Positions 35,813-63,893 of a stretch of 64,000 nt of DNA are shown here, piece by piece. The number at the start of each line of letters is the position of its first letter. The stretch's first letter is position 1. A model generated the notes under the pieces. It saw nothing but the letters and a program-made list of their open reading frames with translations. It had not been told where the DNA came from and ran no database searches. Origin of the DNA: Tridacna crocea (lineage: Eukaryota; Mollusca; Bivalvia; Cardiida; Cardiidae); the NCBI GenBank assembly GCA_943736015.1, contig OX031061.1, positions 53,016,192 through 53,080,191 of the forward strand. Direction: 5' to 3'. The translations under genes and the position numbers were made by a program.

Positions 35813-35943
35813 TTTCATGCAGGTAAGAGGCAAAAAGGTTTTCATGAGTCGACATTACGCAAAGGTTTGCAGGAATGCGAATTTGTCAATAATGCGCATC
35901 CATTGTATAAGAGCGAATTCAAATAAATAAGGCCCCCACGTTT

Positions 35944-37872: not shown

Positions 37873-38192
37873 TTTACAGTGTAGCTGCGCTAAATCCTAA
37901 CAATAGCCGACGGCAAATTTCATTCTTTTATCTCTTATTTTGGGTCTAAGTAGGGAGAATCTTTCGTTTTGGGAATTTTTAAACTTGATTTTGGGAAAAA
38001 TGGTCTGTTTTTGGCATTGGGAACAGGTCCGTTTTACAGTGTAGCTGCGCTAAATCCTAACAATAGCCGACGGCAAATTTCATTCTTTTATCTCTTATTT
38101 TGGGTCTAAGTAGGGAGAATCTTTCGTTTTGGGAATTTTTAAACTTGATTTTGGGAAAAATGGTCTGTTTTTGGCATTGGGAACAGGTCCGT
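37873..38192 (+). repeat. perfect 160-bp tandem duplication
   Basis: Every base of 37873-38032 appears to recur at 38033-38192 without a difference that I could find. The unit starts TTTACAGTGTAGCTGCGC and ends ACAGGTCCGT. Identity this complete points to a very recent tandem duplication, or to an assembly artefact. Confidence 0.9.
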
Positions 38193-38462
38193 TTTACGGA
38201 CCCGTTAAAGAAGGAAAAAAGAAAAAAACCGCTGTATGTTGTCATATTTGAAAGTATTAAATTAGAGTTAGGTATTGCAAAGCATATCCGTAATCTAAAC
38301 GCCAATTTTGTACATTTTTTTGCATTTTGCATTCCAGTTGTCGTTTGTGATATTTATCTGAGTATGATAAAAGAAAAACATGAGTGAGGTCAAAGTTGTC
38401 TGCCAAGCAAGCAGCTTCTTCTAAAGTTTCAAATTATTTCTCGTCTAAGAAAGTTTTTACAT

Positions 38463-38756
38463 CTAAATGTTCCTGTCAAATTCTTCAACTAATAGTAGTT
38501 GTCTAGGTTTTCCATGATCTGCACCTATTTGCTTTGAATGACACCATTTATCAATTAATTGCTCCTCAGTTCTAGCAAATTCAACATGGGTTTGACCATT
38601 TTCTTTCCTGCAATTCCTAACATTTTGTCCATATGGTTCAGGTACCAATTCATAAGCTTTTAGAATGAATTCTTTAACATTATCATAATTGGAAAGCTGT
38701 TTATTGCTTGGCTGCGAAAAAATATCGCTAGCCTTTCCAGTTACAAGACTTTGCAA
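38463..38756 (-). mobile_element. LTR-retrotransposon gag fragment (fossil)
   Basis: The minus-strand reading resembles the SCAN-like capsid segment of Ty3/Gypsy-type gag proteins: LVTGKASDIF, then NYDNVKEFILKAYELVPE, then EFARTEEQLIDKWC. Only this short piece is present; no LTR, protease or polymerase was recognised beside it. It is a broken relic, old by appearance. Confidence 0.55.
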
Positions 38757-38774
38757 GAGTAAAGTCCAGTGCCT

Positions 38775-38856
38775 AGAATCCCAGTGGGCTTCTCGCCTAG
38801 TGAGCTTTTGTCCAGTGGGCTTTTGTCTTACTGGACTTTCGTCCTACACCCTTGGA
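38775..38856 (+). repeat. short iterated motif, 4 copies of CAGTGGGCTTTTGTC type
   Basis: Successive variants CCCAGTGGGCTTCTCG, CCTAGTGAGCTTTTGTC, CCAGTGGGCTTTTGTC and TACTGGACTTTCGTCC follow at about 16-18-bp steps. It resembles the five-fold 16-mer array at 61518-61621 in design though not in sequence. Its role is unknown. Confidence 0.6.
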
Positions 38857-38892
38857 ACAGGTAGAATTGGTAGTAGTAGTACAGAAATTTAA

Positions 38893-39258
38893 TTGCTGTG
38901 GAAATCTTGTTCCTAAAAATAGTTCACATATATTTCACATATTGTAGTCATTGGCGCAATTATTGCAACCACAACAGCACATTTAAGTATTCATCGTCAA
39001 GATCGTGAATGTGGTTGATACTCTAAAGTAGTTCACTTGGGTATATTCTCGCATCTCCAGGTTAAAATTCACCAAGTCAGGACAAAAAACAACTGCGGAT
39101 TGATTTCGTTGTCAGTAAGAAAAGAATTCGTTTTATCTCACTCTACTTTTTCCTTACAACACACAGTGTGTTGTTTTGAGGTTCATTTACTAAAGTCTTC
39201 ATATTGACACGGAAAATTTGGGAGTTGCATTAGTTCAACTTATTTGTCCCTCTAAGTT
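38893..39258. other. unassigned sequence
   Basis: No supportable feature seen. Confidence 0.4.
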
Positions 39259-40616
39259 TTTAGCTCACCTGAGCACAACGTGCTCAAGGGGAGCTTTTAG
39301 GATCACTGGATGTCCGTCGTCCGTCGTCCGTCGTGCATCGTCGGTCGTGCGTCGTGCGTCTTCAACAATTCTTTAAACATCAACTCCTCCTAAACCGCTT
39401 GACCAAACTTGGCTGGAATGTTCCTCGGGAGGTCTTCTTTAAAAGTTGTACACAGAAGTTTATTCTGTCAAAAACTCTGGTTTCCATGGCAACCAAATGG
39501 AATTTTCTAGGAAATTCTTCAAAAATATTCTTCTCTGAAACCGCTGGTCAGATTTTAAAATAATTTCACAGAGATGTTCCTTGGGTGACCCTTTTCAAAA
39601 AGTTTTCAAGAAATTTTGATCCGTCAAGAAACATGGCTCTGGTGAATGGGGGCTTCTTGCACTATACAGAAATAAAGGAATTCTTAAAAATTCTTCTTCT
39701 CTGAAACCGCTGGTCAGATTTTAAAATAATTTCACAGAGATGTTCCTTGAGTGACCTTTTTCAAAAATTGTTCGCGAAATTTTGATCCGTCAAGAATCAT
39801 GGCTCTGGTGAATGGGGGCTACATGCACTATACAGAAATGAAGAAATTCTTCAAAATTTCTTCTTCTCTGAAACCGCAGGTCAGAATTTGAAATAATTTC
39901 ACAGAGATGTACTTTGGATGACCCTGTTCAAAAAGTGTTCGCGAAATTTTGATCCGTCAAGAATCATTGCTCTGGTGAATGGGGGCTACTTGCACTATAG
40001 GGAAATGAAGAAATTCTTAAAAACTTTTCTTCTCTGAAACCGCTGGTCAGAATTTGAAATAATTTCACAGAGATGTACTTTGGATGACCCTGTTCAAAAA
40101 TTGTTCGAGAAATTTTGATCCGTCAAAAAATGTGGCTCTGGTGAATAGGGGCTACTTGCACTATAGGGAAATGAAGAAATTCTTAAAATCTTTTCTTCTC
40201 TGAAACCGCTCGTCAGATTTTGAAATTATTTCACGAAAATGTTCCTTGGGTGACCCTTTTCAAAAGGTGTTCATGATTAGTCAATAAACATGGTTCTGTT
40301 GAATGGGGGCTACTTGCACTCTATGGCCATGAAGGATTTTTTTTTTAATTCTTCTCTGAAACGGCTGATCAGATTCTGAAATAATTTCACAGAAATGTAT
40401 CTTAGTTGACCCTTTTCAAAAATTGCTCCAAATATTTTGATCCATCAAGAAACATGGCTCTGATGGCTGTGGGCTATTTACACCATACAGACATGAAGAA
40501 AGTCTTCAAAATTCTTCTTCTCTGAAATGGCTGTTTAGATTTTGAAAAAAAAATGGCTATGGTCCTCTCAAAAACTCAGGTGAGCGAACCAGGGCCATCT
40601 TCGCCCTCTTGTTTAA
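39259..40616 (+). mobile_element. tandem-core (Helentron-like) element, seven ~165-bp units
   Basis: 5' hairpin AGCTCACCTGAGCAC ... GTGCTCAAGGGGAGCT, then GTCCGTCGTCCGTCGTGC. A leader with GGTTTCCATGGCAACC follows, then units starting near 39525, 39690, 39860, 40025, 40190, 40355 and 40518. The 3' end is CTCAGGTGAGCGAACCAGGG, hairpin, CCTCTTGTTT. It belongs to the same subfamily as 35944-37073; both ends look complete. Confidence 0.8.
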
Positions 40617-40689
40617 ACATAAGTAAAGAAGAAGCCCAGTTCGAAATTATAATAACATTTTTTTTTTTTTTAAACCAAGTTAGTTCCAG

Positions 40690-40840
40690 ACATAGACCGA
40701 AAAGGAGATAATAAGCGAATGACCCCATTCACTAAATTAACACAGATTACTATATAACGAACTGTAAGGAGAATTGAGGATCGGCCACAACCCTCATGTT
40801 TCGTTTAGACGTGAACAATAAAGTTACACAAAAAAGTAGG
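40690..40840 (+). repeat. LINE 3' UTR fragment (L1/Tx1-like family)
   Basis: GAGGATCGGCCACAACCCTC, then TTTAGACGTGAACAATAAAG and a short A-run, corresponds to the 3' end of the truncated LINE at 43116-44812 (GGGGATGGCCACGACCCTC and TAGACGTGGCAATTAAAG). It is probably a very short 5'-truncated insertion. Confidence 0.5.
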
Positions 40841-40869
40841 AATGACTTGAAATTATTTGGTATGCTTAT

Positions 40870-42985
40870 TTGTTGCAATATTTGGAAGTGCAGTGCGCAA
40901 ATATTGTAACTCTTCCTCGTGCTGTCTGAGTTATTTCCCTTTGTTCATTATTTTTACAGCATTTAGTGCTTGTCCAGAATATCACCTTTTTAGCTCACCT
41001 GAGCACGTAGTGTTCGGGGTGAGCTATTGTGATCGGTCGTCGTTCATCGTCCGTCTGTCCGTCCGTCCGTCTGTCCGTCTCTAAACAATTACTAAAAAAT
41101 CTTCTCTTCTGAAACCGCTCATCAGATTTCAATGAAACTTCACAGAAATTATCCTTAGGTGATGCACTTTCAACATGCTTCAAAGATTTGAATTCCATGA
41201 AGAACTCTGGTTGCCATGGCAACAGAAGGAAAAAAAACTTGAAAAATCTTCTTGTCCCAAATCGTAATGGCTAGAGCTTTCATATTTGGCATGTAGCATG
41301 ATCTAGTGGCCCTCTACCAAAATACTTCAAATTATGGCCCTGGTGTTGAAAATACCCCTATGTTGTCGGTTCTCGGATTTCACAAAGAGATAAAGAAGGA
41401 AATCTTTAAAAATATTCTTGTCCCAAACTGTCAGGTCTAGAGCTTTCATATTTGGCATGTAGCATCATCTAGTGGCCCTCTACCAAAATACTTCAAATAA
41501 TGGGCCTAGTGTTGGAAATAGCCCCATGTTGTGGGGTCTCGGATTTCACAAAGAGATGAAGAAGGTATTCTTTAAATATCTTCTTGTCCCAAACCGTATG
41601 GGCTAGAGCTTTCATATTTGGCATGCAGTATCATCCAGTGGCCCTCTACTAAAATACTTCAAATTATGGTCCTGGAGTGAAAATTAGCCTTTTGTCGTTG
41701 GTTTTATTTTCACAGAGACACAAGGAAGGAAATCTTTAAAAATCTTCTTGTCCCAAATGGTAATGGCCAGAGCTCTCATATTTGGCAAGTATTATTATCT
41801 AGTAGCCCTCTACCAAAATACTTCATGTTATGGCCCTGATGTAAAAAAAATGGCCCTATATTGTGGGTCTAAGATTTCACATCGAGATAAAGAAGAAAAT
41901 CTTCAGAAATCTCTTTCTCCCAAATGGTAATGGCCAGAGCTTTCATATTTGGTATGTAGCATCATCTAGTGGCCTTCTACCAAAATCCCTTAAATTATTA
42001 TGCTAGTGTCGAAAATGGCCCTTTGTTGTGGGTTCTCGGATTTCACATAGTGATAAAGAAGGAAATCTTGGAAAATCTTCTTGTCCCAAACCATAAGGGC
42101 TAGAGCTTTCATATTTGGTATATAGCATCATCTAGTGGCTCTCTACCAAAATACTTCAAACAATGGCTCTGGTATGAAAGTTAGCCCTATGTTGTTGGTC
42201 TCAGATTTCACAGATAAGGGGGGGGACCTTTAAAAATCTTTTTGTTAGCATTCTAGGGACCACATTTCTTGCTTAGCTGAATTTAAAGTTAGTTAGAATG
42301 TTTGTCTCGATAAAATCTCTGAGCCTGCATTTAGTGCTTGTCCGGTATATAACTTTGTCATCTCAAATCAGAACGACTTCAAAATTGGCATGCATGTTTG
42401 TTGCATTATTATCGAGTACTGTGTGGAAGAACAATAATTCTACCTAGCACGGATTTTGAATAATTTCACTTTGATCTTCATTGTTACAGTAGGTTTTGCT
42501 TGTCCAGTGTGGAATTTTGAAGTCTCTTGTCAAATTGACTTAAGACTTGGTAAACATGTTTGTTACATTGCCTGCTCTTTGCAACTTGTATACCTCCTTG
42601 ACAAATTGTGGTGGGATTGCATATCTTGCGACTATTTTCTGTTCTTGTTTCATTATCATTTGCCCTTGAACCTCAATGTTTGGTAATTATCTTCATTGTA
42701 GACCTTTAATGCTTAGTACTCAGGTGAGCAATATAGGACCATCATGGTCCTCTTGTTATCTTAAGTCGAGACCGCTTCAAACTTGGTATGCGTGTTTGTT
42801 GCAATATAACAGAGCACAGTGCGCAAGAACAAAAACACTATCTAGCGCAAATTTTGAGTAACTCCACTTTGATCTTCATTTTTACAGTATTTCTTGCTTG
42901 TCCAGAACGGAACTTTGTCATCTCAAGTCAAATTGACTTGGGACTTGGTAAACATGTTTGTTGCAGTATGTAACATTATGGGTTA
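40870..42985 (+). repeat. older repeat interrupted by a tandem-core element
   Basis: Flanks on either side of 40989-42757 rejoin to match an uninterrupted copy beside them: left flank GCTTGTCCAGAATATCACC and right flank ATCTTAAGTCGAGACCG together correspond to CTTGTCCAGAACGGAACTTT plus GTCATCTCAAGTCAAATTG at 42898-42937. This gives an empty-site comparison within the window. The older repeat also carries TTGTTGCAATAT and GCACAGTGCGCAA phrases in each unit. Confidence 0.65.
40989..42757 (+). mobile_element. tandem-core (Helentron-like) element, third core type
   Basis: 5' end TTTAGCTCACCTGAGCACG with a shorter hairpin, then (GTCC)n/(GTCTGTCC)n, a leader with GGTTGCCATGGCAAC, and about seven ~166-bp units marked by GCTAGAGCTTTCATATTTGG (near 41270, 41437, 41605 and on to 42110). 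A 3' region runs to CTCAGGTGAGCAATATAGG, hairpin GGACC-ATCAT-GGTCC and TCTTGTT. Inside the 3' region the CTTGTCCAG-type subrepeat occurs twice (about 42341 and 42497). Boundaries are supported by the empty-site comparison with flanking sequence. Confidence 0.75.
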
Positions 42986-43099: not shown

Positions 43100-43115
43100 G
43101 ATATTGATAGTGGGA
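43100..43115. repeat. target-site duplication of truncated LINE (left)
   Basis: GATATTGATAGTGGGA is repeated exactly at 44813-44828, directly after the LINE's poly-A tail. It fixes the inserted piece as 43116-44812. Confidence 0.9.
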
Positions 43116-44812
43116 TGGCCCAGCTAAAATAAAACATTCATTGATGATCAAAGATTATGTGGAGGGGGGATTAAGGATGATAGATATCAAGAATTTTAAT
43201 ACAACTATGAAATTAAAATGGATGAAGAAAATAGTAGCCAACAGTAAAAATGATTGCTACAAATTTATAACCAACATATTTGATCCAGAGAAAGTTTTTA
43301 ACTTTGGTACTTTATACTGCAAAAAAATTCTAGGAACAATAAAAAATGAATTTTGGATAGATGTTTTAAAATCATTCATGGTATTTAGCTCTAAATATAA
43401 GTTTACAAAATTGTCGGAAATAATGACCATGCCTCTATTTTATAACGAGAACATTACGATAGACTCTAAGTATATTTACAATGCAAACTTATACAAATGT
43501 GGCATAAGATATGTTAAAGACATTTTGAGATCCGACGGATGTTTTAAAAGTTTAAATGAAATCAAAACCGTAACCAAGAATAGAATAAATTTTTTAAACT
43601 ATTATAGTATTGTAAATTCAGTTAAAGCTTTCTTTTCACATCAGGATATTCCATTTCCAGTTACACATAAAATTTTAAATGAATGTCATAATCCTTCAAT
43701 TAACAGTTATTTTTTTCATATAATAACTAAAAACGACATAAACAAACACGTTTATAATACTCTTATAAAAAACGACGAAACACCAACAAGTAGGAACAAA
43801 TGGTCTACATATTATAATGGTTTAAACTTAGATTGGAAACAAATTCACGGAAACGTATTCAAATACACACGAGATACTTACACCCAATGGTTACAAACAA
43901 GAATAGTGCATCGGATTATTGCAACAAACGCCTTACTTTTTAAAATGAAGCTGATAGATACGAATTTATGTACATTTTGTGGCACAGATGTTGAAACAAT
44001 CACACATTTATTTTACGAATGTAGATACACGAAAACTTTGATAAGTAGAGTCACAGAAATTATAAAAAAATTTAATCAAACTGTGCAAATTAACAGCTCT
44101 ATTTTACTTTTGGGCTCAAACACAACAAATATTAAATTAGATATACTCCTTTTGGAAATAAAAAAAATATATATATTTCTGCAGAAATAAACTATATAAA
44201 CCTTCAATAAATGGATTAAGGAACCACCTCACAACAAATTTAGACGTCTATAGAAATACTAAAATGTTTGAAAAAGGAGAAAATATCATGACTTTTGTAG
44301 AACATATCATACAAAACCTCCCATGAGCCGATTAAGATAGTCAGTAACCGAAGACAAAAATCATAGAAAACGCGAAAAAAAAAAAAAATCAACAATTAAG
44401 AAGTAAGATTTAAAGACACAAGACTTTTCCTTTTATCCTGGTTCATTTTAGTGAGTAAACAAGCATATCAGCATATTAGCCCACCCATGCACACACACAC
44501 ACACACACCCGTATACACCCCCCACACATACCCGCACACTTTTGCACCACATAAGAAAATAAGCTTTGTTGTCGCAAATCAATCAGTATTTTGGCACATC
44601 AATTACATATTAGTTAACTTGAAATTCTAGAATGGGGAAATTGTAAAATTTGAAAACATTTTAAAAGCTATTACACAATGAAACAATGATATTTGTAAAT
44701 ATGTACTACTAACAAAATATTTACTAACAATAATATGTAAGGTATGTTGGGGGATGGCCACGACCCTCACATACCGATAGACGTGGCAATTAAAGCTTAA
44801 AAAAAAAAAAAA
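43116..44812 (+). mobile_element. 5'-truncated L1/Tx1-like LINE with poly-A tail
   Basis: A 1,697-bp insertion flanked by a perfect 16-bp target-site duplication and ending in about 15 A residues. It holds the C-terminal part of ORF2 and a 3' UTR with a (CA)n tract (44489-44508). The perfect duplication and uninterrupted reading frame point to a recent insertion. Truncated LINEs of this kind arise when target-primed reverse transcription stops early. Confidence 0.85.
43141..44190 (+). pseudogene. C-terminal ORF2 fragment of L1/Tx1-like LINE (349 codons, open)
   Basis: An uninterrupted frame to the TAA at 44188-44190. It has no polymerase motifs; it is the region after the reverse transcriptase. 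The diagnostic part lies at about codons 240-300: WLQTRIVHRIIATNALLFKM followed by LCTFCGTDVETITHLFYEC, the C-terminal zinc-type CxxC...HLFxxC motif of L1/Tx1 clade ORF2 proteins. The first in-frame ATG is not a natural start; the fragment is open at its 5' end because of truncation. It is not expected to be active. Confidence 0.75.
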
Positions 44813-48858: not shown

Positions 48859-49327
48859 GTAAGCAAAATATATCAAATTTATTATCATTTTGTTATTCAT
48901 TTTGCATTTTTACGAGATTTTCTGAATAATACAAGAAGTATTAATGTCGATTTCTTGTTGGCGTGTAAATGTGGTTTTTCTAGGAAGAAGATCCAGTGTT
49001 TAAATCTTAGACGCGGGATTCCCCGATTTTTTCGTCCCCCGGCCCCAATTTTTCTGCCGTTGTGCGGGACCTAGCCCACACTTCAAGTTAAATAAAGTTA
49101 TTTTCACAAAGCTGGGTTGTCCGTGATCAACTTAAAATCCAAATTAAAAAACCTACCTATTCTCCAATAGGATAGCGTACTGTTTTCTGAAAATGAAACG
49201 AAAATTCCAGGAACGATACCCCATTTAACATGGCTCCTGATATTTTCCTTCAATTAGATCCGAAAGCCACCAAAACCTTTTATTAATGCACTTGGACTTT
49301 GTAAATGATAGTCAGGTAAACTAATCG
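48859..49327. other. unassigned; possible intron start
   Basis: No repeat end seen until the giant element at 49328. The last eight bases before the element (AACTAATC, 49319-49326) form its left target-site duplication. Confidence 0.4.
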
Positions 49328-50044
49328 GGTATAGCTAAACAGCGAAATGAACTTCCTTTCGCTTCCTTTCGCGAAAGGAACATAATGCCCACGAAAGGAA
49401 GATTGTTTTCTATGAAAAAAGCGTTTTTCTTGCGAAAGGAAGGTGTTTTTGGAAAACTAACGTCAATTTTTTCGTACGGTTGAAATAGAATTGTTGGGAT
49501 TGAGCGTTTGAGGCCGAAAAATCGTGTTTTAGTAATCGCTGTAAATGGTGTTACTATAAATAGCATTTCCTTTCTAAAATTGAGTTTCTTTCACAAAAGG
49601 AAGGTTTTTGCCCGCAAGTAATGTTTATTCCACGACATGTTTTATAAATAATGAAATATCTCTTTTGAAGTAGACTAGGTACCCCTTACAGATTAAAGGG
49701 CTAGGTTCACAAAGGGGCATTTTTGGCCCTATAAAGAATTCTGGGTAAATGTGTATTAAGTGGAAGTACAATGTCTACATGTTATAAAAAATAAGTCGAA
49801 ACTGACAAAGTTTTGTTTTTGTTACCATGGCAACCACAGAACCATGATTATGTGAAATAATTAATTTTCTGCTTTATTTCATGAAAATAATTTTTGTTGC
49901 TTGTTTTATCGCATTATTAAACAATTGCTTAGTATCTTTATAAAATATATATCAAATACTTGCTATGTAAAATTCGCGTTGTCATGGTAACGTTATTTAT
50001 TGTAGTGAAAAAATGCATATTAAGTATAACTTTATGTATGGCAT

Positions 50045-51076
50045 GCATACTGATGCCATGAAGAATTGATATGGATATAACTATTTGAGCATTCAGTGAA
50101 CAACAATAAAACATGTATTTAGTACAATGACCTGTAATATGTTTCCATGGCAACCACAAAAACAACCCATTTTCAGCACCATTCTGTATAAGAATGATCT
50201 TATTTGTTATTGAACATTTTTTTCAAAGGATTACATTTTGAGTTACAGAAACAAATGTCAGATAACTATATAATTATGTAATATTTATGTTGTCATGGCA
50301 ACTAAATCTTAACTAGATCTTATTCTAAACATATGAAATGTAGCACAATCATTTGGATCCATTTGGACCCCCCAAAAAATCATGTTAGATTGTATCTCTG
50401 GCTTGCAAAAAACAAAAAGGGGGAATGACAACACTGTACAGTAACACTTTGTCAGATTATTATCAATAATACCCATATATCCATACATTAAAATGGTATG
50501 AATAAGTTGTATAAAATATGCCTGTATTATAACACAAATCATTTACTTTTTGCGGTCTCTCCAATCGTCCAACTCACGCCAACTGAATAAAAAAGTAACT
50601 CACGGTTACTATAAACATGCTTACTATCGCCATGAAGAACTGATATGGATATATCTATTTGAGCATTCAGTGAATAACAATAAAAACATATATTTAGTAC
50701 AGTGACCTGTAATTTGTTACCATGGCAACCACAAAAACAACCCATTTTCAGCATCATTCTGTTTAAAAATGATCTTATTTGTTATTGAAGATTTTTCAAA
50801 GGATTACATTTTTGAGAAACAAAATGTTAGATAACTATATAATTATGTAATATTTATGTTGTCATGGTAACTAAATCTAAACTAGATCTTATTCTAAGCA
50901 TATGAAATGTGGCACAATCATTTGAATCCATTTGGACCCCCCCCCCCCAACATGTTACATTGTATCTCTGGCTTGCAACACACAAAATGGGGCAATGACA
51001 ACTGTACAGTAATACTTTGTCATATTATTATCAATAATATCCCTATATCCAATCATTAAAATGGTATGAACAAGCA
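50045..51076 (+). repeat. two ~460-bp direct repeats, 574 bp apart
   Basis: 50045-50506 and 50619-51076 share almost all phrases in order: CATGAAGAATTGATATGG, TTTGAGCATTCAGTGAA, CATGGCAACCACAAAAACAA, AGATCTTATTCTAA, TTTGGACCCCCC and AAAATGGTATGAA. Identity is roughly nine in ten by eye. The CCATGGCAACC words are also seen in the leaders of the tandem-core elements. Non-coding. Confidence 0.8.
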
Positions 51077-51112
51077 ATTTCGTTGAAATGATATTCCCCG
51101 CCGAAAAAGACC

Positions 51113-51873
51113 TTTTTATCCCACACCGAAGGCGGAGGGATATAGTTTTAGCGTTTTCCGTCTGTCCGTCCGTGAGTCCGTCCCGGCAAATATCTCCAAT
51201 ACCATTGGACGGAATTTCATGAAACTTAGTACATGTGTACAATGACCCATTCTGCCGAGACACTTTTTTCTTTATTCGATGCAAAATAGCCGACTGGGAA
51301 CAATTTTAAGTTACACTTAAGTACGCTCTTGATGTTTGGAGTCTTGTATTCAAAACTATACAAAGTTTTTACATTGAACTTGTCACATCTGTCAACCTCC
51401 ATTAGGAAATGCAGAAAAAAAGTTTCACCTGCATTTACCGTGCAACACCACAGTTATATACCCTTGTTTTTTTAATATTAAGGTGTCATGGAAAAGGGGG
51501 GCTTCATTTTATATTTCATTCCATTTCTTGTGAAGGCAACTCCTCCCACATTTCTCGACGGAATAGAATAGAATTTTCACAGAATATTTCTCGTCATGTG
51601 ACCTATTGCATATTGTCAACAATTTTGATTTGTAGCTGCGCCATGAAAAAAGGGGGCTTCATGTTTTATTTCATTCTGTTTCTTGTGAAAGCAACTCCTC
51701 CCATATTTCTTGACAGAATTGAATAGAATTATCACAGAAAGTTTCTCGTCTTGTGACCTATCGCATATTCTCAAGGTTTTGCGATTTGTAGCTGCATCAT
51801 GAAAAAAGGGGGCTTCATGTTTTATTTCATTCTATTTCTTGTGAAGGCAACTCCTCCCACACTTCTTGGCAGA
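51113..51873 (+). repeat. C-rich-headed repeat with three 156-bp units
   Basis: The head TTTTTATCCCACACCGAAGG, then CGGAGGGATATAG and GTCTGTCCGTCC, is a relative of the heads at 17651 and 18297. Three units begin at 51487, 51642 and 51798 with CATGAAAAAAGGGGGCTTCA-type starts and contain CTTGTGAAGGCAACTCCTCC. The units are close in sequence, suggesting fairly recent expansion. Confidence 0.65.
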
Positions 51874-52034
51874 AAAGTAACACATAAGTAATTATTATAC
51901 CTTACAATTTAGATCTATTTAGGTCACAGACTGTTAGGCAAAACACTTAGAATATGCATATTTTTCAAGAATTTGATGTAAAATATGAGTTAATCCTTTA
52001 TCACACAATCCTGATTTTTAGCAACCTCTGGAAG

Positions 52035-52420
52035 AATCCTTTTGTAAATATTGTGGGGAAAAGAGATAATACTAGTAAGCAGTATTTTTTTCCTCTAGCA
52101 ACAATGTTTTATTAACCCTTTAAAGGCAAATTTCTCCTTTTTAGGACCCTCTTATTTTGCCATTAAAAGCTCTCAATTTGCGCAAATCTAAGATTTTATT
52201 GTTTGTTAAGGGGTTAAAGTGATAATACATTCAAACTTTGAGTTTGAAAACCACTTTTCCAACATACAAATTGAAGAGTTACATTGAAATGAGTAAAATC
52301 AAAACCCTAAGCTCATATAAATAATTTTGGACACCTCCTCAGCAAGAGGCTTTTGAAAACATTGTGGAAAAAAGAGTTGTTATTCAGAACAACAACTTTC
52401 AAACAATACTTTGTAAGAAA
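52035..52420. repeat. two hairpin-core MITE pieces around TTAACCCTTT ends
   Basis: A hairpin-core piece (52040-52110, AATATTGTGGGGAAAAGAG with a diverged partner) abuts TTAACCCTTTAAAGGC at 52113, whose inverted mate GTTAAGGGGTTAA ends at 52217. Another core half lies at 52338-52420 (CTTTTGAAAACATTGTGG ... AACAACTTTCAAAC). These are degraded copies of the family seen intact at 1410-1640. Confidence 0.45.
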
Positions 52421-52512
52421 ATTCTTCTTGGATTTATCTCAGTTTTTCTTGATTTTTTAATTTCCTAATTGGAAGAAAATACTGAGTGATAGTTGAAGAA
52501 AAAAAAAATAGT

Positions 52513-52583
52513 CCAGGATGGGATATGATCCTACAACGTCGCATATGACGGGCCGCGCTCATGACCACTGCACTACACGCCCC
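52513..52583 (-). repeat. tRNA-derived block (pol III A and B boxes), minus strand
   Basis: Read on the minus strand: GGGGCGTGTAGTGCAGTGGT, with TAGTGCAGTGG fitting the A box (52565-52575), and GGATCATATCC (52521-52531) close to a B box. The spacing suits a tRNA, and the ends CCAGGATGG / cccc do not pair as a clean acceptor stem. It is most likely a tRNA pseudogene or SINE head; it does not match the SINE-like repeat at 1087. Confidence 0.45.
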
Positions 52584-52899
52584 GTTATCATAGTAGCGTC
52601 ACAAATTAATTTTATACCAATTATTGATGAGTACAGATATTCACTAAAACAATTTTTCCGTAATTACAAAAATTTATAAACTTTAATAGCGATACAGTTA
52701 CTTTTAAGACGTATTTTCATTGTACAAAAGCGCTTATATGGACATTACACTTACAATGCCGATCTTGTTCGTCTGCACTTCTGCCTCGAACATTATAGGC
52801 CAAGCTAAATTATCGCGAAATCGCTGTTTTACTAAAGCAATGAAATAACCTATTGGTGTCTCCGATTTTTGTTAGTTAAAATTATGCATGTTTACTTAC

Positions 52900-53054
52900 T
52901 CAGGGTCCGTCTGTACCTGGCATTTCTTTAAAAAATTGTCCGTAGTCAATGACGCCATCGTTACCTCTTGAAGCGTAACTGATGGTATTTCGGATAGCAT
53001 AATAATCGGATAAATCTTGATAAATGTCACGTAAAGTTAGCAGCATAGGTAATT
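52900..53054 (-). CDS. possible small exon with degenerate EF-hand-like loop
   Basis: On the minus strand a pyrimidine-rich acceptor (CCTTTCTTC...CAAG, ending 53055) precedes 50 codons containing LRDIYQDLSDYYAIRNTI and SRGNDGVIDYGQFFKEM, then TGA. The NDGVIDYGQF stretch fits the second half of an EF-hand loop (DG then I at positions 5, 6 and 8), but position 1 is Ser and position 12 Gln, so calcium binding is doubtful. A second open stretch at about 52756-52870 ends in ATT|GTAAGT. It lies inside the nested 3.9-kb element, so it could be a captured host exon, old transposon coding sequence, or chance. Confidence 0.2.
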
Positions 53055-53229
53055 CTTGAATTTTGAAGAAAGGAAAATATGCACAATCGCATGTTACCGT
53101 GTATCTAGTCTACTAATAGTACACCTGTTTATTTCATGACTGATCTGATAAAACTTCTTCCAAAACACGATGGATTGAACTGTGCCTGGGAACCGCCTGG
53201 GAAGAGGCAAGATTTTTATTTTTTTTAAC

Positions 53230-53331
53230 ATGAAGCCATTCTGCCGACGACATGAAATTTTCAGAAAATACATATGATATCTTTATTAAACCCCTCTGTA
53301 AATTTCATGGATGCGGCAGAGTGGCTTCATA
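53230..53331. repeat. palindromic repeat, ~100 bp
   Basis: ATGAAGCCATTCTGCCG and CATGAAATTT at the left pair with AAATTTCATG and CGGCAGAGTGGCTTCAT at the right (53300-53330). MITE-like hairpin. Confidence 0.6.
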
Positions 53332-53570
53332 TTTATCTTTTACTAAAATATGGTAAAAATCGGCAAAAACCGCTCAATTTGACCGAACCGTATCATTTTC
53401 TTAAGTCATTGCTATGGTAGCGATGGAGTTTTAAGGCAGGATATTTACGTAATTATAAACATAGTTAGTTCTTTGTTCTAGATAAATGACTTTTAGATAG
53501 AAATTCGTAAATTTATTTTTCAGAGTTTACAGGGCCATTTTTGCCCATTCTTGAACTTAGCCCTTTCAGC

Positions 53571-54166
53571 TTTTTTTTTTCAGTGATAGTGTGTAGTGAA
53601 TTTGTTATTGATGATTTTGCAAAGTCTCTTTTAGAGGAAAACTCCATTCATGAAAACAGGGACCATATGTAATAGACTATGTACATTTTACAATCCCTGA
53701 TGAAAGGAAAATTCACTCTGAGCTATGCAAGAATTCTATTCCAATCGAAAATAGGATTTCTTTCCTAAGTTTAGTACATTTTCGCAACATAAATGAAATT
53801 TGAAGGTTTAATTTAACTTTTTACATCCCCCCTCAAAAAAGAAAGAAGTGTTTTAGTGGCGCTTTCTTTGTGTGAAAAAAAAGGGTTTCTTTTCTAAAAC
53901 GCATGTTTTCTCGATATGATTTAAATTCACCCTTTACCCCATAAGGCATTTCTATGGTATCTCTAGTTGACACTAAATAACAGCAAGGATGAAGCCGTTT
54001 CTTATGTGTATATGACACCTTTTGATAGTGTAGAAAACATTGTGACAAAAGGTGAAATTGCTCGTCACGAGACAGCAAACAGGGAAAATCCCGAAATTAG
54101 CATTATATCCCTTTCCAACAATATTTTTGTGTTTTCAATCTCATACTTTAATCATTAATCACGTCT
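53571..54166. other. inner part of the 11.9-kb element, low-complexity and degraded repeat
   Basis: No gene. It contains a half-core of the hairpin MITE family near 54030-54065 (AAAACATTGTGACAAAAGG then AAATTGCTCG). Confidence 0.4.
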
Positions 54167-55100
54167 AATCTTCCTTTCGCGCTAGGAAGCGAAATGATTA
54201 TGGTACGAAATTATTGCATATACCATCATGATTCCTTTAGAAGAAGAAGAAGAACAAAAAATCCTGGAAATAGCATTTTATCCCTTTCCAACAATATTTC
54301 ACCCCAAAATATGCTATTCAAATGAGGACAAGAAAGAACAGGGCAATCATACGAGTTTAACAACCACTGATCAGCGTGTTTTACATTTGTGATTTCAATC
54401 TCATATTTTAAACTTAAATCACGTCTAAATTATCAGACATCTATAATTACATTTTATTTCTCTTCTTTCACGAAGTTTGCTACTCTAATGATTTCATCTT
54501 AAAGTCTTAGACTCTTCCAAGAAGAAGTTTCATATTATCTTGTTTCTATCTATAGACGGATTTCTATTTCGCAATAGGAAATTCCTTACAGTAAAGAATC
54601 TGGTTACTAGCAAAAGTTTTATATGAAACTTATAAAGTGAAGTTCATCCATGTCGAAAAGATATTCTCAAATTTAGAAAAATGCTTTCATGCAAAAAGAC
54701 TTCGTTCGAGGCAAAAATCTTCCTTTCGTGAACGGACATACTTTCATGCAAGAACGGTTATTTATAGTAATACTTTCACCGCGATAGTAAAACACGATTT
54801 TTCTAGTCTAGAATTCCAGTCTAGAAACTCTCAAGTTCAAAATCTAACTTTAACAAATAACTAGAATATATAATCAATTCATCAACGGCGGTTTCCTTTC
54901 GTGAGGAAAACACTGCCTTAATAGTAAACAATCTTCCTTTCGTGGACGTAATCTTCCTTTTTGCACAAGCAAGCGAAATGATTATGGTACGAAATGATTG
55001 TATATACCATAATGATTCCTTTAGAAAAAGAAGGAAAAAAAAAAATCCTGGAAATAGCATTTTATCCCTTTCCAACAATATTTCACCCCAAAATATGTGT
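54167..55100 (+). repeat. 783-bp-period direct duplication inside the 11.9-kb element
   Basis: The stretch from AATCTTCCTTTCGCGC through GCGAAATGATTATGG and TCCTGGAAATAGCATTTTAT to CACCCCAAAATATG (54167-54330) recurs at 54950-55100. Between the two copies, 54461-54960 is a direct copy of the element's right end. Confidence 0.75.
54461..54960 (+). repeat. direct copy of the 11.9-kb element's right subterminal region
   Basis: This ~500-bp stretch aligns in the same orientation with 60726-61215: CTTCTTTCACGAAGTTTGC, CTTAGACTCTTCCAAGAAGA, ATGCAAAAAGACT, AGAACGGTTATTTATAGTAA and ATCTTCCTTTCGTGGACGT occur in order in both. It stops just before the outermost palindrome and TIR. So the element contains an internal copy of its own right end, pointing the same way as the real one. 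Confidence 0.8.
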
Positions 55101-56295
55101 TGTAGTAGCATGGTGCTATTTGAATGAAAGGAAGATTCTCTCACGAAAGGAAGATTGTTCTTTTAAGCCATGAAATATGAGATTTTTTTTAAAGTAAAGA
55201 TATTTTCGAAATGGACTCATTTTATTATTTGAATGAAAGGAAGATCTTCTCACGAAAGGAAGGTTTTTCTTTTATGCTACGAAATATGAGATTTTTTAAA
55301 ATTAAAGATATTTTCGAAATGGACTCATTTTATTAATCAAATTAAGGCTCTTTTTTTTTTCAAGTACGGTAATGTTTGTTGTTAGTATTTGTTATGAATG
55401 GTGTTGCCAATCCGGTATTTTGTTTGGAAAAATCTTTTACGAAATTTCGATTATTTTTAACCGTGAAAGAAGTCGTTCATCCACGAAAGAAGGTTTCCTT
55501 TCAAACTTAATTCATTTTTCTCGATACGGATACATTCAGTTACACGTTAAATTTAAGCCTTATAACTGAAAATGTGCGTAAATTAATATTGTAAGCAATT
55601 GTGTTGAGCACTACGATCATTTTCACACTGTCGTGAAGGTAAATTCTCTCCACGAAATGAAGTTCTTTATTACTGAGGTAGATGATGTTGCTTTCTACAG
55701 TATTCCTTTAGCAAAAGAAAAGACTTCGTAACAAAACGCTTCACAGTTTCCGGGAAAAGTAATTTAAAGAAAAAAAAAAGAATGAAAAAAAAAAATATAT
55801 ATTTGATGTTGAGTTTTGACATTTGATATTTCTTTTCTAATATGTTAACCTTGCAGGGCAGGTTATTTTCGTCCTTTTTTCCTGTATGGACGTTTCTGTC
55901 CCGACCAGCTTTATTCCTTCTATAGGTCTTGTTCATCCCTAACATTGTGTGGAAGAGAGTAAAGGTTTACTTTATCTCTCTAAGGTTGAATGAAAAGAAC
56001 CTTTCCTAAATTTTCCCCCTCACACACAAGGTCATATCATCGAACTTTTTTTTGGCAAGGAAACACGAGGACGAGTTATACAGTATATTTTAAGAAAAAA
56101 ACTTACATAGATCTCTCTCTCTATGAGTCTGTTTCTCTGGTTGTCCCTTCACCTGTCTGGGTCACTAGAATGTAACAGTATTTAATAACTTTCAGCAAAA
56201 CAAGAAGATCTCTCTCCAACACTGTTATCCTTCGCTGGGAAGAATCTCTCTCTCTCTCTCTCTCTACAAGTCTCTTTCTTCAAGTCACAGACAAC

Positions 56296-56332
<37 letters not shown>

Positions 56333-57663
56333 GTTTCAAACATCCTGCATAACTTTTGATTCAAGACGTCTTGCATGCAAAAGGGTGAACATTGAAATGA
56401 TCAAGTCTGATAATTAGTTCATCAGAAAAAATGGATTTGCGTCTTAAGGGTAACCTTGGCGTACTTTTTTTCTTTATTTGATTAAGTCTTCAAACGAATT
56501 TCACAGCCTATGGTCAACAAACTCTGGTCAAACAGTTGCCTGGGTTCAAGTCCATTCCTGTTTTCAAAAATTACGTGTCAAATTCAAACCAAAGTGCCAC
56601 ATTCTGTGTGCCACATCTGTGAATTTAATCAATTCTAGTTGAATTGACTTCTTTTAGTTGTATGAACCATATCCTTTTACTTTATCATTTTAAACCACCT
56701 ATACAGAGGTTGAGACCAGCCATTGGCGTATAAACTGTATGAAATGTACAACGCTGGAAATGGCCAGAAACTAAAACAGCCGGTGACGTTATATATACCA
56801 AGGAAAAAGCATGATTTCGTATACAATAACGTTTACAAATGTATTGCAAGAATAGGATTTTATTTTATTTAGTACAATCAAAAGCTCAAATTTGATTCGA
56901 TGTGATTCTTTGTGATCTTTTGAATCTATGAAGTACATGTAGCTATAGTCTCCAGTTTCATTTCTTCTCATTTCAGTTTAATTTTACTCTTCTTTCAACT
57001 TCAGAAGTGTTGGTAGTGGTTAATATACAATGTCACTGTTCTAGAAACCGCATCATTGTCGTCATCGGCTATATTGTATTTCTAGAAAAAATCGCCAAAA
57101 GACTGTATTTTAAGGGAAAAATTTAAAAATTGGGGCATGTTTATCCTATGTCTTTCCCAAACGACAAATTTTACACTCCTCCAAACTGAAAGAGCTTTCA
57201 GACGACGATTGTTAATATGATAGAATGGGGGAGAGTTCTCCAAAATGGTAGAAAACACTGTGGGAAAAGGAGAAACTGCTCAATACCAGTAATTTTTGCT
57301 TTTCCCACAGAGTTTTCAAAAGACTTGTACTGCAGACAGGTAAAAACAAGGACTTGTTTGGTAAAGGGTTAAGAAAATGTAGGCACAGAAAAAGGTGCGA
57401 GCAGATTGTTGATTTTGATTGGATTGTTCGTTATTTATCAGCTATCAATCCATTGTAGTAATAGGCGGAGCCAGCAACTAGTCAATCGTAACATTATGTA
57501 ACAATCAGTCGCCCTGCTGAGAATTTGTAATAAACTGACCATCAATCTGGCACGTATCCAGTTTATTCACTATATGCAACTAGAGGCGCCTTTTAAGGAC
57601 ACTATGTATTTAATATCGGACTGCACAGAGCATGCTGTCTGATCTTTGGTTTCAACTTTAATA
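55096..57663 (+). repeat. left arm of giant fold-back (2.57 kb)
   Basis: Reverse complement of 58037-60559 along its whole length with interruptions of a few bases; identity appears about 90% on average and about 99% across 55370-55640. It includes (TC)n tracts (56244-56265, 56298-56326), a TTAA-type hairpin MITE (57147-57371) and several GAAAGGAAG words. A 65-codon frame (55372-55569) encodes the same peptide as its mirror in the other arm, but the near-identity continues into the non-coding flank. Confidence 0.9.
57147..57371 (-). mobile_element. TTAA-type hairpin MITE in left arm
   Basis: On the minus strand it starts TTAACCCTTTACCAAACAAG at 57371 and carries the core CTTTTGAAAACTCTGTGGG with its complement. 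It has a mirror copy in the right arm at about 58316-58542, so it was present before the arms were duplicated. Confidence 0.6.
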
Positions 57664-58036
57664 CAATGTCACAGTTATCGGCAATTTACCATTTTCCTGC
57701 AAAGTGTTCAATCCGTTTCAATAATGAATACCATTTTAAGCCACATTTAGTTTGATTTTTCGTCTGCAAATGCTGTCATTGTACATGATGTATTTGGTTC
57801 TGGTCAAAACGACCACAGTAAGTGGATTTTGCCGTCTAGCAAATCCGCTTAAAAGTCTAAATTTTATCGTCTGGTAAAGAGTTCACTCTAAATAGGATGA
57901 TTTTGTCAGAATTCAAAAACTGTATAATTTACGTGCATATGCGTTTTGGGAGTAACGTTTGAGGGAGAGAGGTTGATAAATTTGATTCGAAGCTCAATTT
58001 CTGTAATTTCAAATTTCTTGGCAAGTAAATTTTGCA
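57664..58036. other. spacer (loop) of giant fold-back
   Basis: About 370 bp of single-copy sequence between the arms, with no strong internal pairing or reading frame. AAATCCGCTT / AAGTGGATTT words (57815-57850) form the only short inverted pair noted. Confidence 0.6.
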
Positions 58037-60559
58037 GTATTGAAGTTGAAACCAAAGATCAGACAGCATGATTTCGATATTAATACAGTGTCCTTAAAAG
58101 GCACTCCGAGTTGCGTATAGTGAATAAACTGGATACATGCCAGATGGATGTTCAGTTTATTACAAATTCTCAGCCGGGCGATTGATTGTTACATAATGTT
58201 ACAATTAACCAGTTGCTGGCTCCGCCTACTATAATGGATTGATAGCTGATAATTAACGTATTATCCAATCAAAATTAACAATCTGCTCGTACTTTTTTCT
58301 GTGCCTACATTTTCTCAACCCTTGTTTTTACCTGTCTGCAGTACAAGTCTTTTGAACACTCTGTGGGAAAAGGAGAAATTACTCCTAATGAGGGAAATTT
58401 CTCCTTTTCCCACAGTTTTTTCTACCATTTTTGAGAACCCCTCCTCCCCCATTCTATTTTATCATATTTACAATCGTCGTCTGAAAGCTCTTTCAGTTTG
58501 GAGGTGTGTAAAATATGTCGTTTGGGAAAGAGTTAGGATAAACATGCCTCAATTCTTTAATTTTTCCCTTTAAAATATAGTCTATCGGCGATTTTTTTCT
58601 AGAAATAACGTTACAATATAGCCAATGATGACAATGATGCGGTTTCTGTAACAGTGACGTATATTAACCACTACGAACACTTCTAAAGTTGAAAGAAGAG
58701 TAAAATTAAACTGAAATGAGAAGAAATGAAACTGGAGACTATAGCTACTTCATAGATCAACACATCACAAAGAATAAAGTCGAATCAAATTTGAGCTTTT
58801 GATTGTACTAAATAAAATAAAATCCTATTCTTGCAATACATTTGTAAACGTTATTGTATACGAAATCATGCTTTTTCCTTGGTATATATAACGTCACCGG
58901 CTGTTTTAGTTTCTGGCCATTTCCAGCGTTGTACATTTCATACAGTTTATACGCCAATGGCTGGTCTCAACCTCTGTATAGGTGGTTTAAAATGATAAAG
59001 TAAAAGGATATGGTTCATACAACTAAAAGAAGTCAATTCAAGTAGAATTGATTAAATTCACAGATGTGGCACACAGAATGTGGCACTTTGGTTTGAATTT
59101 GAACGTTATTTTTGAAAACAGGAATGGACTTGAACCCAGGCAACTGTTTGACCAGAGTCTGTTGACCATAGGCTGTGAAATTCGTTTGAAGACTTAACCA
59201 AATAAAAAAAGTACGCCAAGGTTACCCTTAGGAGGCAAATCCATTATTTCTTATCAACTAATTATCAGACTTGATCATTGCGATGTTCACCCTTTTGCAT
59301 GCAAGACGTCTTGAATCAAAAGTTCTGCAGGATGTTTTTAAACCATGCTGAGAGAGAGAGAGAGAGAGAGTTGTTGTCTGTGACTTGAAGAAAGGGACTT
59401 GTAAAGAGAGAGAGAGAAAGGGAGAGAGAGAGATTATTCCCAGCGATGGATAACTGCTGGAGAGAGAATTTCTTCTTGTTTTGCTGAAATTTATTAAATA
59501 CTGTTACATTCTAGTGACTCAGACAGGTGAAGGGACAACCAGAGAAACAGACTCATAGAGAGAGAGATCTATGTAAGTTTTTTTCTTAAAAGATATAACT
59601 CGTCCTCATGTTTCCCTTCCCAAAAAAAGTTCGATGATATGACCTTGTGCGTGACGGGAAAATTTTAGGAAATGTTCTTTTCATTCAACCTTAGAGAGAT
59701 AAAGTAAACCTTTACTCTCTTCCACACAATGTTAGGGATGAACAAGACCTGTAGAAGGAATAAAGCTGGTCGGGACAGAAACGTCTATACAGGAAAAAAG
59801 GACGAAAATAACCCGCCCTGCAAGGTTAACATATTTAGAAAAGAAATATCAAATATCAAAACTCAACATCAAATATTCATTTTTGTCATTTTTTTTCTTT
59901 AAATTACTTTTCCCGGAAACTGTGAAGCGTTTTGTTACGAAATCTTTTCTTTTGCTAAAGGAATGCTGTAGATAGCAACAGTAATAAAGAACTTCATTTC
60001 GTGGAGAGAATTTACCTTCACGACAGTGTGAAAATGATCGTAGTGCTCAACACAATTGCTTACAATATTAATTTACGCACATTTTCAGTTATAAGGCTTA
60101 AATTTAACGTGTAACTGAATGTATCCGTATCGAGAAAAATGAATTAAGTTAGAAAGGAAACCTTCTTTCGTGGATGAACGACTTCTTTCACGGTTAAAAA
60201 TGATCGAAATTTCGTAAAAGATTTTTCCAAACAAAATACCGGATTGGCAACACCATTCATAACAAATACTAACAACAAACATTACCGTACTTGAAAAAAA
60301 GAAAAGAGCCTTAATTTGATTAATAAAATGAGTCCATTTCGAAAATATCTTTAGTTTTAAAAAATCTCATATTTCGTAGCATAAAAGAAAAACCTTCCTT
60401 TCGTGAGAAGATCTTCCTTTCATTCAAATAATAAAATGAGTCCATTTCGAAAATATCATTGCTTTAAAAAAAATCTCATATTTCATAGCTTAAAAGAACA
60501 ATCTTCCTTTCGTGAGAGAATCTTCCTTTCATTCAAATAGCACCATGCTACAACACAAT
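58037..60559 (-). repeat. right arm of giant fold-back (2.52 kb)
   Basis: Mirror of 55096-57663. It carries (GA)n at 59349-59370 and 59404-59432 where the left arm has (TC)n, the mirrored TTAA-type MITE with a well-preserved hairpin core (AAGGAGAAATTACTCC ... AAATTTCTCCTTTTCCCAC), and the mirrored 65-codon frame at 60085-60282. Confidence 0.9.
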
Positions 60560-61257
60560 TTTTCGGTCTAATCCACTTAAAATCAACATTAAAATTTTAA
60601 TTATATCGGGAATATGTACTAAGTTTGGCAGTGAAACCTTCCTTTCGTTTAGAAAACACATCTGACACAGCAAACAATCATCCTTTCATGGATGGAACTG
60701 TCCTTTCACTGTCAAATTTTAGTTTTCTTCTTTCACGAAGTTTGCCAGTCTAATGATTTCATCTTAAAGTCTTAGACTCTTCCAAGAAGAACAGTTTTAT
60801 ATCTTGGTTCTATAGACGGATTTGTATTCGCAAAAGGAATTTCCTTACCCTAAAGAATCTCGTTAATAGCAAAAGTTTTATATAAAACTTATAAATTTGA
60901 CAAGTCAAGTTCATCCATGTTGGAAAGATATTCTCAAATTTTGAAAAATCCTTTCATGCAAAAAGACTACGTTCGAGGAAAAAATCTTCCTTTCGTGTAC
61001 ATACATACTTTCATGCAAGAACGGTTATTTATAGTAACACTTTCACCGCGATAGTAAAACACGATTTTTCGAGTGTAAAAATCTTAAATTCATAATCTAA
61101 CTTTTACAAATACCTAGAATGTATAAGCAATAAATCAACGACAGTTTCCTTTCGTGAGGAAAACGCTTCTTTTATAGTAAAGAATCTTCCTTTCGTGGAC
61201 GTGATCTTCCTTTCGCGAAAGGAAGCGAAAGGAAGTTCCTTTCGCTGTTTAGCTATA
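60560..61257. repeat. right subterminal region and TIR of the 11.9-kb element
   Basis: Contains GAAAGGAAG/CTTCCTTTC words about every 50-100 bp, then the palindrome CTTCCTTTCGCGAAAGGAAG (61204-61223), AGCGAAAGGAAG, and the terminal TTTCGCTGTTTAGCTATACC. Its outer ~235 bp are the inverted, diverged partner of the left end. Confidence 0.75.
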
Positions 61258-61258
61258 C

Positions 61259-61266
61259 CGAACTAA
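61259..61266. repeat. target-site duplication of the 11.9-kb element (right)
   Basis: AACTAATC, identical to 49319-49326. Confidence 0.6.
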
Positions 61267-61517
61267 TCCAGACATTTTTTCTATTCAATTAACAAAACAT
61301 GACTGGAAATAAACAATATCTATGGTCATTAATATTATTGGTCTATAATCTACAGTGCTTTACAAGCTTCTGCTCTGAAACAATTTACAGATGTTTCTGT
61401 AACAGACGAGTTCGGTAACATAGACTTATAGAGTAAATCGATTGGATGTTTCGTTAACAAGGCAATTATATAGTGATATTGTTATATTCTTTACACCCAA
61501 CGCCTGAACGGGTTTCA

Positions 61518-62588: not shown

Positions 62589-63050
62589 CAGGGTTCGCGC
62601 TGCTGATCGCCATTGTCGCCATTTGCGACAAAAATTAAAATTTGGCGCAAGATTTTTTCATTTGGCGAAAATGCGTGGCGACAAGTTTTTACAAGCTGGC
62701 CCCAAAAAGAAATTCTTTTGAAATTCATTGTCGTAAGCGTTTGCGAGCTAAGCTTGCGATTGGGCGAAGAAGTCGCCGGATTTCAAAAAACTTCGCGCAT
62801 TTCGCCAAGAAAAGCGAAGTCCAAGTCGACTGAAAAAAATCGGGAAATCGCCTCGCGTATATCGTCAAAGCGTCCTGTGTGTAATCTACCATATCAGCGT
62901 GTGCCGTACCCGATTGACAGTTAGGGCCCAATCAGCGAGTTTAATTAGTTTACAACATACCGAGAGTCTGATTGACAAGTCATTGTTAATTAACTTTACG
63001 ACACAATGGGATAATCCCCTATTATTGACAAATATCAGCGCCGCCTATCG
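62589..63050. repeat. second hAT-like end with GCGACAA / TTGGCG words
   Basis: CAGGGTTCGCGC at 62589 is another hAT-type start, followed by GATCGCCATTGTCGCCATTT and several TTTGGCG and GGCGACAA words. The open frames across it (up to 103 codons) overlap in three frames and contain no recognised domain, so none is called as a gene. Confidence 0.4.
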
Positions 63051-63893
63051 GTGTTTGTCGGACCTCTATTTTTGAAACACAGTTTACCAATTCTGACATA
63101 CGGAGCTGAAATATACGGATTTGAAAATCTTGATATCATAGAAAATGTTCATAAACAGTTTCTTAGAAAATTACTGAAAGCACGCAAAAGTACGCCCCTA
63201 TACATGTTGTATGGTGAAGTAGGACGCTATCCAATATCGATCACAATCAAATGTAGAATGATTGCTTTCTGGTCAAAATTACTATCGAATCATAATAAAA
63301 TTTCAAGTAAGATCTATTTCTATATGCTCAGCCAACAAATAAATAACTCGAAATGGCTCAATAAGATAAAAGACATTCTCGATTCCGTAGGGCTATCAGA
63401 TTTCTGGTATCATCATTTGAATAATGGCCATATTCCAGTAAACCTGCATAAGCTAGTCAAGCAAATATTAATAGACCAGTATCATCAAGAATGGCAATCT
63501 TCTATGCTGGAGACAAATAAAGGAAAAATATACAAGTTAGGTAAAGAATGTCTAAAATTTGAAAGCTATTTTAAAATCTTACCAATTTTTGATGCCCTTA
63601 TGCTTTTCAAATTTCGAACGGCTAACCATAAATTACCTATTGAAATAGGACGGTGGGATGGCACTATTTTTGAAAATCGAAAATGTAATCTTTGCCAACG
63701 CGATGAAATAGGTTCCGAAAAACATTATCTCTTTTCATGCGACTATTTCAAAGAGTCTAGAAGAAGATTTCTTCCAAATTCAAATACTGATGATACTGAA
63801 TATAATTACATGCAACTGATGCAGTCCTCGAGTAAACATGTCATGTTAAATCTTGCACGTTTCGCTAGAGTCATTATGGCTACATTTAACTAA
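63051..63893 (+). pseudogene. C-terminal ORF2 fragment of a CR1/L2-like LINE
   Basis: A 280-codon open frame ends at TAA 63891. The start resembles the thumb/connector region of ORF2 in this group (LPILTYGAEIYGFENLDIIE, then LLKARKSTP and YGEVGRYPISI). The end has KFRTANHKLPIE and CNLCQRDEIGSEKHYLFSC, the C-terminal CxxC...HxxxxC motif. No polymerase motifs are present, so the copy is 5'-truncated; the upstream boundary is near 63040. The frame is uninterrupted, suggesting a recent insertion. The 3' UTR continues to a T-run at 63968-63986 and may run past the window. Confidence 0.65.

Follow-up and report, generated by a model that had tools for sequence, protein, structure and literature searches.

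A non-autonomous terminal-inverted-repeat element and its palindrome-bearing relatives in the genome of Tridacna crocea

What kind of mobile unit is an 11.9-kb stretch bounded by inverted repeats in which no transposase is recognisable, and what moves it? The question is raised by a locus of the bivalve Tridacna crocea, within a stretch of 64,000 bp (hereafter the window; contig OX031061.1, C6:53016192-53080191) in which the initial annotation had described a single, large and unusual non-coding transposon-like unit. Our analysis indicates that the element is one member of a multicopy family, very probably a recently mobile, non-autonomous cut-and-paste family with terminal inverted repeats (TIRs). 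A Mutator-type transposase is the somewhat favoured source of its movement, judged from the length of the target site duplications (TSDs) and the composite, internally repeated TIRs. The element proper occupies 49327-61260 in window numbering (11,934 bp). Its ends are exact as proposed, with coordinates shifted by 1 and 3 bases, and the predicted 8-bp flanking duplication is present as a perfect AACTAATC on both sides, a string found on the + strand of the window at these two positions only. The unit is composed as follows.

49319-49326, no strand: left TSD, AACTAATC, exact 8-bp duplication
49327-49697, + strand: left end with TIR, starting GGGTATAGCTAAACAGCGAAA..., with six CTTCCTTTCG-type motif sites
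49698-53563, no strand: nested transposon, apparently Spy-type and non-autonomous, 3,866 bp, with ends GGGCTAGGTTCAC... and ...TTGAACTTAGCCC, flanked by AAA and TTT, without TSD and without Pfam domain
53564-54165, + strand: internal non-coding part, common to other copies of the family
54166-55097, + strand: internal duplicated pieces
55090-57664, + strand: palindrome arm 1
57665-58036, no strand: palindrome loop, 372 bp
58037-60562, - strand: palindrome arm 2
60563-61260, + strand: right end, a motif-rich subterminal region with TIR, closing ...GCTGTTTAGCTATACCG
61261-61268, no strand: right TSD, AACTAATC, exact 8-bp duplication

The left terminus reads GGGTATAGCTAAACAGCGAAA... and the right one, inward from the right, CGGTATAGCTAAACAGCGAAA...; the two have an exact 20-mer in common and differ at two of the first 54 aligned bases. 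Complementarity extends inward at 87% over 124 bp and 73% over 342 columns, in line with the 20-bp termini and longer diverged TIR described initially. The CTTCCTTTCG motif, counted with at most one mismatch, has 28 sites in the element against three in the remaining ~52 kb of the window, clustering at both ends, in the internal copies of the ends and in the outer palindrome arms; this distribution suggests a putative transposase-binding motif. The heavy internal inverted structure resolves into one palindrome of 5.47 kb (55090-57664 and 58037-60562), flanked by duplicated right-end pieces. One of these pieces, 54451-54981, is a diverged copy (84.7%) of the right end at 60716-61233, and positions 54166-54313 duplicate 54949-55097 with 92% identity. 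Subtraction of the nested 3,866 bp leaves ~8.07 kb, matching the 3.9 kb and 8 kb estimated earlier.

Copies of the same ends, which the initial annotation proposed to look for, are abundant. The exact terminal 20-mer matched 302 places in the 1.05-Gb genome (154 on the + and 148 on the - strand) and its reversed control none, so its recurrence is not due to chance. These ends correspond to at least 151 copies, and the description as a single unit was thus not upheld. The family terminus begins GGTATAGC.... Positions were listed for 100 of the 302 exact ends, spanning C1 to C5:38.4 Mb, and a + end followed by a neighbouring - end within 25 kb was taken as one copy; 76 of the ends formed 38 pairs, leaving 24 unpaired. 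Sizes of the paired copies were 3.73-3.79 kb in 17 of 38, 7.98-8.43 kb in six and 1.4-19.2 kb in the other 15. In the commonest form, of ~3.77 kb (for example S37 at locus L034), the right subterminal region is duplicated. The window copy is a member of the 8.0/8.4-kb class that carries the palindrome and, within it, of the 8.0-kb lineage, whose structure is common to the window copy (minus the nested insert), L009, L010, L011, L013 and L014. The large size that had drawn attention therefore holds for this copy but not for the commonest member, the 11.9 kb consisting of a palindrome derivative plus the putative Spy-type insertion.

Both flanks were compared in 22 copies, a set without L022, whose right end was unmatched, and without the 19.2-kb copy, whose left end was not fetched. 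Exact TSDs of 9 bp were present in 12 copies and of 8 bp in nine, and one copy (L012) had none. With 12 of the 21 exact TSDs at 9 bp, chance extension of 8-bp duplications is an unlikely explanation (P of 0.0017 with p=0.25, and 0.02 with p=0.33). When the joined flanks of the 22 copies were compared with the fetched loci, four spanning matches were obtained. The clear case is BIG14 (L027 and L028), which sits in a repeat whose uninterrupted relative in L005 (83% over 172 bp) holds a single near-copy of the 8-bp target and so represents a paralogous empty site. Two rows correspond to one looser case, L009 (75%, gapped at the target), and the fourth, a 63-bp match of S37, was short, fell within the S37 locus itself and was left out of the count. 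For the window copy itself, the joined flanks gave no spanning match among the fetched loci, a genome-wide search not having been made. The expected empty sites were accordingly obtained for the family rather than for the window copy, and the joint absence of further copies and empty sites, which the initial annotation had regarded as fatal to the idea, is not what the genome contains.

No recognisable coding capacity was detected, as initially stated: six-frame Pfam scans gave nothing above cut-off for the nested insert, for 53564-61260 or for a 3.77-kb copy taken with 100 bp on each side, the last of which also stood for the left 371 bp of the window element. A match to PF23660 was discounted as weak (E of 0.018; 15.5 bits, below the cut-off of 27). 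Rfam gave no match at the gathering threshold for 49200-61400, and phage records none to 49327-49600. Copies of unusual size were considered as coding sources. The 12.7-kb copy BIG12 (L031-L032, C2:22481756-22494661) was rejected, since its hAT and Gypsy-type elements are nested with ends of their own; the Gypsy-type element has 190-bp long terminal repeats with 100% identity and adjoins the separate hAT-type transposon. BIG19 was rejected likewise, its extra ~15 kb looking like a Maverick/polinton-type insertion in an ordinary 3.77-kb copy. This 19.2-kb copy (L029-L030, C1:43327245-43346288) holds long frames in its ~15-kb insert, including one of 1297 amino acids that reads like a DNA polymerase from its translation. 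Three further copies, read in part, align largely to the 3.77-kb form: 2,271 of 2,501 bases in the 5.7-kb copy L045, ~1,900 of 2,201 in the 7.0-kb copy L047 and nearly all of 2,001 in the 5.0-kb copy L048. The parts read contained no long open frame (the longest had 166 amino acids; no family search was made). An antisense frame of ~106-172 amino acids (...WALFFSVL...KGHSH...) recurs in L018, L022, L045, L047, L048 and L031+L032; it had no Pfam match in L034.

The nested 3,866-bp insert has no counterpart in any of the 19 fetched left-end loci: 16 run directly from the base matching 49697 to the base matching 53564, and the other three (L024-L026) are continuous along the 3.77-kb form, which itself lacks the insert. 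The occupied junction reads GATTAAA(GGGCTAGGTTCAC...TTGAACTTAGCCC)TTTCAGC and the empty site in sister copies GATTAAATTTCAGC; sister copies thus show AAATTT, with insertion between AAA and TTT and no duplication. A pattern matching the insert ends, with C barred at three flanking positions, was found at 54 places in the genome, with AAA in front of 53 and TAA in front of one. Spy elements cut exactly between AAA and TTT. As described in excerpts of PMC4482050 and PMC11304231, Spy transposons of the PHIS superfamily have a strong AAATTT preference, no TSD and TIRs. The insert agrees in all three features; however, six-frame Pfam translation recognised no domain and no PHIS DDE transposase in it, and its placement as a non-autonomous Spy-type element is accordingly drawn from target signature and TIRs. 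It represents a clean insertion of apparent Spy type without duplication, its empty site documented by sister copies. A 13-base string of its end also occurs in two virology papers, which matched nothing else.

The palindrome appears to travel as cargo of the family. A 461-bp loop query had at least 26 near-complete matches (at least 440 bp) and two partial ones in the genome, counts that are lower bounds because 40 of 365 candidates were scored; the remaining rows represented a common repeat of ~65-90 bp and short echoes of the arms. For 23 of these 28 loci, a listed family end was seen by eye no more than 10 kb away, which suggests the cargo interpretation, and the other five are beyond the reach of the partial end lists. 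In the window copy the two arms are 95.4% identical without gaps and 91% with gaps, and within-copy identity was 95-96% in all eight copies measured. Corresponding arms of different copies are more alike, at 99.2-99.9% among four 8.0-kb copies and 96-97% between the 8.0-kb and 8.4-kb lineages. Of the gap-free columns in an alignment of the 12 arms of six copies, 2189 were uniform; 50 distinguished the arms in both lineages, 19 distinguished the lineages in both arms, 104 had a single change and 84 were polymorphic within a group. These identities and column patterns argue that the palindrome predates the split between the 8.0-kb and 8.4-kb lineages, with some sequence exchange between arms being possible. 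By eye, no target duplication was seen at the palindrome borders. A ~230-bp repeat (L035:2287-2518 and several other fetched loci) has diverged copies in the arms near the loop. Structures like this 5.5-kb palindrome are usually regarded as unstable. The non-autonomous family described here, apparently orphan and active in the recent past, has been able to amplify 8-kb units that hold one, and about 26 natural replicates are available for asking how palindromes survive transposition and whether hairpin RNA feeds silencing.

The following sequence of events would account for these structures. A transposase supplied in trans would bind the ends, probably at the terminus GGTATAGC... and at the repeats of the CTTCCTTTCG motif, and the excised unit would reinsert with an 8-9-bp staggered cut. 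One derivative may have gained the 5.5-kb inverted duplication between its right-end repeats; this palindrome derivative would then have split into the 8.0-kb and 8.4-kb lineages and risen in number to about 26 copies or more. Later, the non-autonomous Spy-type element would have inserted into the window copy, a member of the 8.0-kb lineage.

A candidate transposase was sought through whole-genome domain matches, which numbered 61 for Mutator-like elements (MULEs), one for KDZ, five for Merlin-type, 19 for P-type and at least 104 for hAT (150 of 403 candidates scored). Distances to the nearest listed end were computed for 15, one, three, nine and 35 of these, respectively; three of the compared matches, two hAT and one MULE, lie less than 10 kb from such an end. 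As far as they could be cross-checked, no partner was recognised among the five groups. The sole KDZ match (C3:2212536-2213114) lies within a 1361-amino-acid frame. A MULE-domain element at L046 (C9:7512600-7516900), with a 515-amino-acid frame and 18 other genomic matches at one score (41.1 bits), was rejected as the partner because its TIRs are unrelated to the family ends; it is the one such element whose ends were inspected. These TIRs consist of short tandem GGACGTTTTGGCCAC-like motifs, and the element is itself foldback-like.

A Mutator-type source draws on three features. Exact TSDs within the 8-11 bp given for MULEs (excerpt of PMC6446971) flank 21 of 22 copies, the TIRs are long, as MULE TIRs of often hundreds of bp are, and they are composites of repeated short motifs as in foldback elements of the Tm1 type, though less regular than in Tm1. 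The presence in this genome of the MULE-domain element at L046, whose own, unrelated TIRs contain short tandem motifs, also speaks for it. Several observations weigh against this source. No autonomous family copy was found, and the coding relative with these TIRs that the initial annotation had hoped for was searched for without success. Within the range of listed ends, none of the 15 MULE matches lies inside a family element, and the closest one (C5:38436263) lies outside, 2.5 kb from an end that faces away from this match. Variant ends that match over the first 16 bases but differ at the 17th, the one kind of variant searched, occur at one place. The mixture of 8- and 9-bp duplications is typical of MULEs but not exclusive to them. 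Merlin TSDs, for instance, are 8-9 bp. Since the transposase was not found, the family is classed only as working most like a non-autonomous Mutator/foldback (Tm1-like) element, an analogy of structure, with the superfamily unproven.

Other explanations concern either the transposition itself or the transposase only. That the structure is an assembly artefact or a segmental duplication has a negligible probability. Large palindromes are hard to assemble; however, the same ends recur on many chromosomes, at sites unrelated to one another and with exact TSDs that differ, which refutes an artefact as a general explanation, and both the paralogous empty site of BIG14 and the identical 8.0-kb structure at six loci speak against it as well. 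As for the transposase, mobilisation by hAT is improbable. hAT transposases produce 8-bp TSDs, a hAT dimerisation-domain match (C2:22490118) lies inside the 12.7-kb copy, a second of equal score lies 2.8 kb outside another copy, and a third of equal score (C7:58766038) is outside the set compared with ends. Yet the match in the 12.7-kb copy, the sole hAT gene detected within a family copy, looks by eye like a nested insertion, bounded by inverted termini of its own (CAGACATGTTAAGT.../...ACTTAACATGTCTG) and flanked by a separate 6-8-bp duplication. Duplications of 9 bp, rather than the 8 bp of hAT, flank 12 of 22 copies, and the family ends do not begin with CAG, as the hAT end consensus does.

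A foldback element of the P-element type is about equally improbable as hAT. P-type transposases leave TSDs of 7-8 bp, whereas 9-bp duplications dominate here. Galileo, of the P superfamily, does have long, internally repetitive TIRs (excerpt of PMC3573991), and several of the 19 matches to P-type RNase H domains stand in long open frames; none of the nine within the range of listed ends comes closer than 88 kb to such an end, however. A slightly better, although still small, chance belongs to a transposase of an unrecognised superfamily missed by the domain searches. The five known families yielded no recognised partner, although the arms of the 8.0-kb copies are ~99% identical, which implies that the transposase source was active recently. 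Against this, 100 of the 302 ends and 150 of the 403 hAT candidates entered the cross-check, and an autonomous copy may be missing from this individual or from the assembly, be split by introns, or have no more than ~10 bp of terminus in common. It is a distinctly long shot that such a transposase, making 8/9-bp cuts, moves the family while the palindrome serves as a ready-made long-hairpin RNA locus, whose transcripts would yield small RNAs directed at the motif-rich sequences of the family, in the manner of a self-limiting regulator. A Mutator-type transposase acting in trans remains the preferred interpretation.

Elsewhere in the window, the region 28490-42212 contains tandem arrays of a 166-167-bp repeat at 28696-31125, 36105-36940, 39511-40547 and 41234-42212, with a further array at 32777-33560 in inverse orientation; four of the five are preceded by short GTCCGTC-type arrays. 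They resemble satellite-like arrays on mobile elements such as the oyster Helentrons (excerpt of PMC7492417). Long frames at 11891-14766, 19738-25219, 43111-44190 and 63015-63893 resemble non-LTR retrotransposon proteins, as read from their translations.

Judged from the literature without repeat libraries, it is probable that neither the family nor its palindromic derivative has been described before. Papers on Zisupton, Mutator/Phantom, bivalve palindromic non-autonomous, Spy, and foldback/Mutator/mollusc elements contained none recognisably on this family, and a literature search with short strings of its termini retrieved no paper that contains them. The architecture of this copy is unusual, but the kind of element is ordinary: composite or repeated-TIR non-autonomous elements are already known in Tm1, Tetris and tandem-TIR MULEs. 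The interesting parts are the hitch-hiking palindrome and the missing partner.

The closest structural likeness is to Tm1, the Mutator/foldback element of Meloidogyne, with composite TIRs and TSDs of 8-10 bp, mostly 9, and with MITE-like (miniature inverted-repeat transposable element) and other transposase-less members beside transposase-encoding ones (excerpts of PMC3169594). Both combine outer motifs that are asymmetric with short repeated ones in their composite TIRs, and their TSD lengths are similar. The motif units of the Tridacna family are less regularly tandem, most of its paired copies, at 3.7-8.4 kb, are longer than two Tm1 elements of 1.08 and 2.59 kb, and its copy number exceeds the 39 and 22 elements annotated there. 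The comparison is one of structure and not of sequence, and transposase-bearing members, present in Tm1, were not found in the family. Tetris and Galileo of Drosophila (excerpts of PMC4079207 and PMC3573991) likewise have rearranged forms and long TIRs that are modular or internally repetitive. Tetris, like the family, is apparently non-autonomous, whereas Galileo belongs to the P superfamily, its likeness being structural, with no sequence comparison involved. Plant MULEs with multiple or tandem TIRs similarly bear extra terminal copies, are mostly non-autonomous and have in some cases been amplified (excerpts of PMC3310237); in the Tridacna family, by contrast, it is the right end that is present in extra copies, and in the large form the palindrome lies between them.

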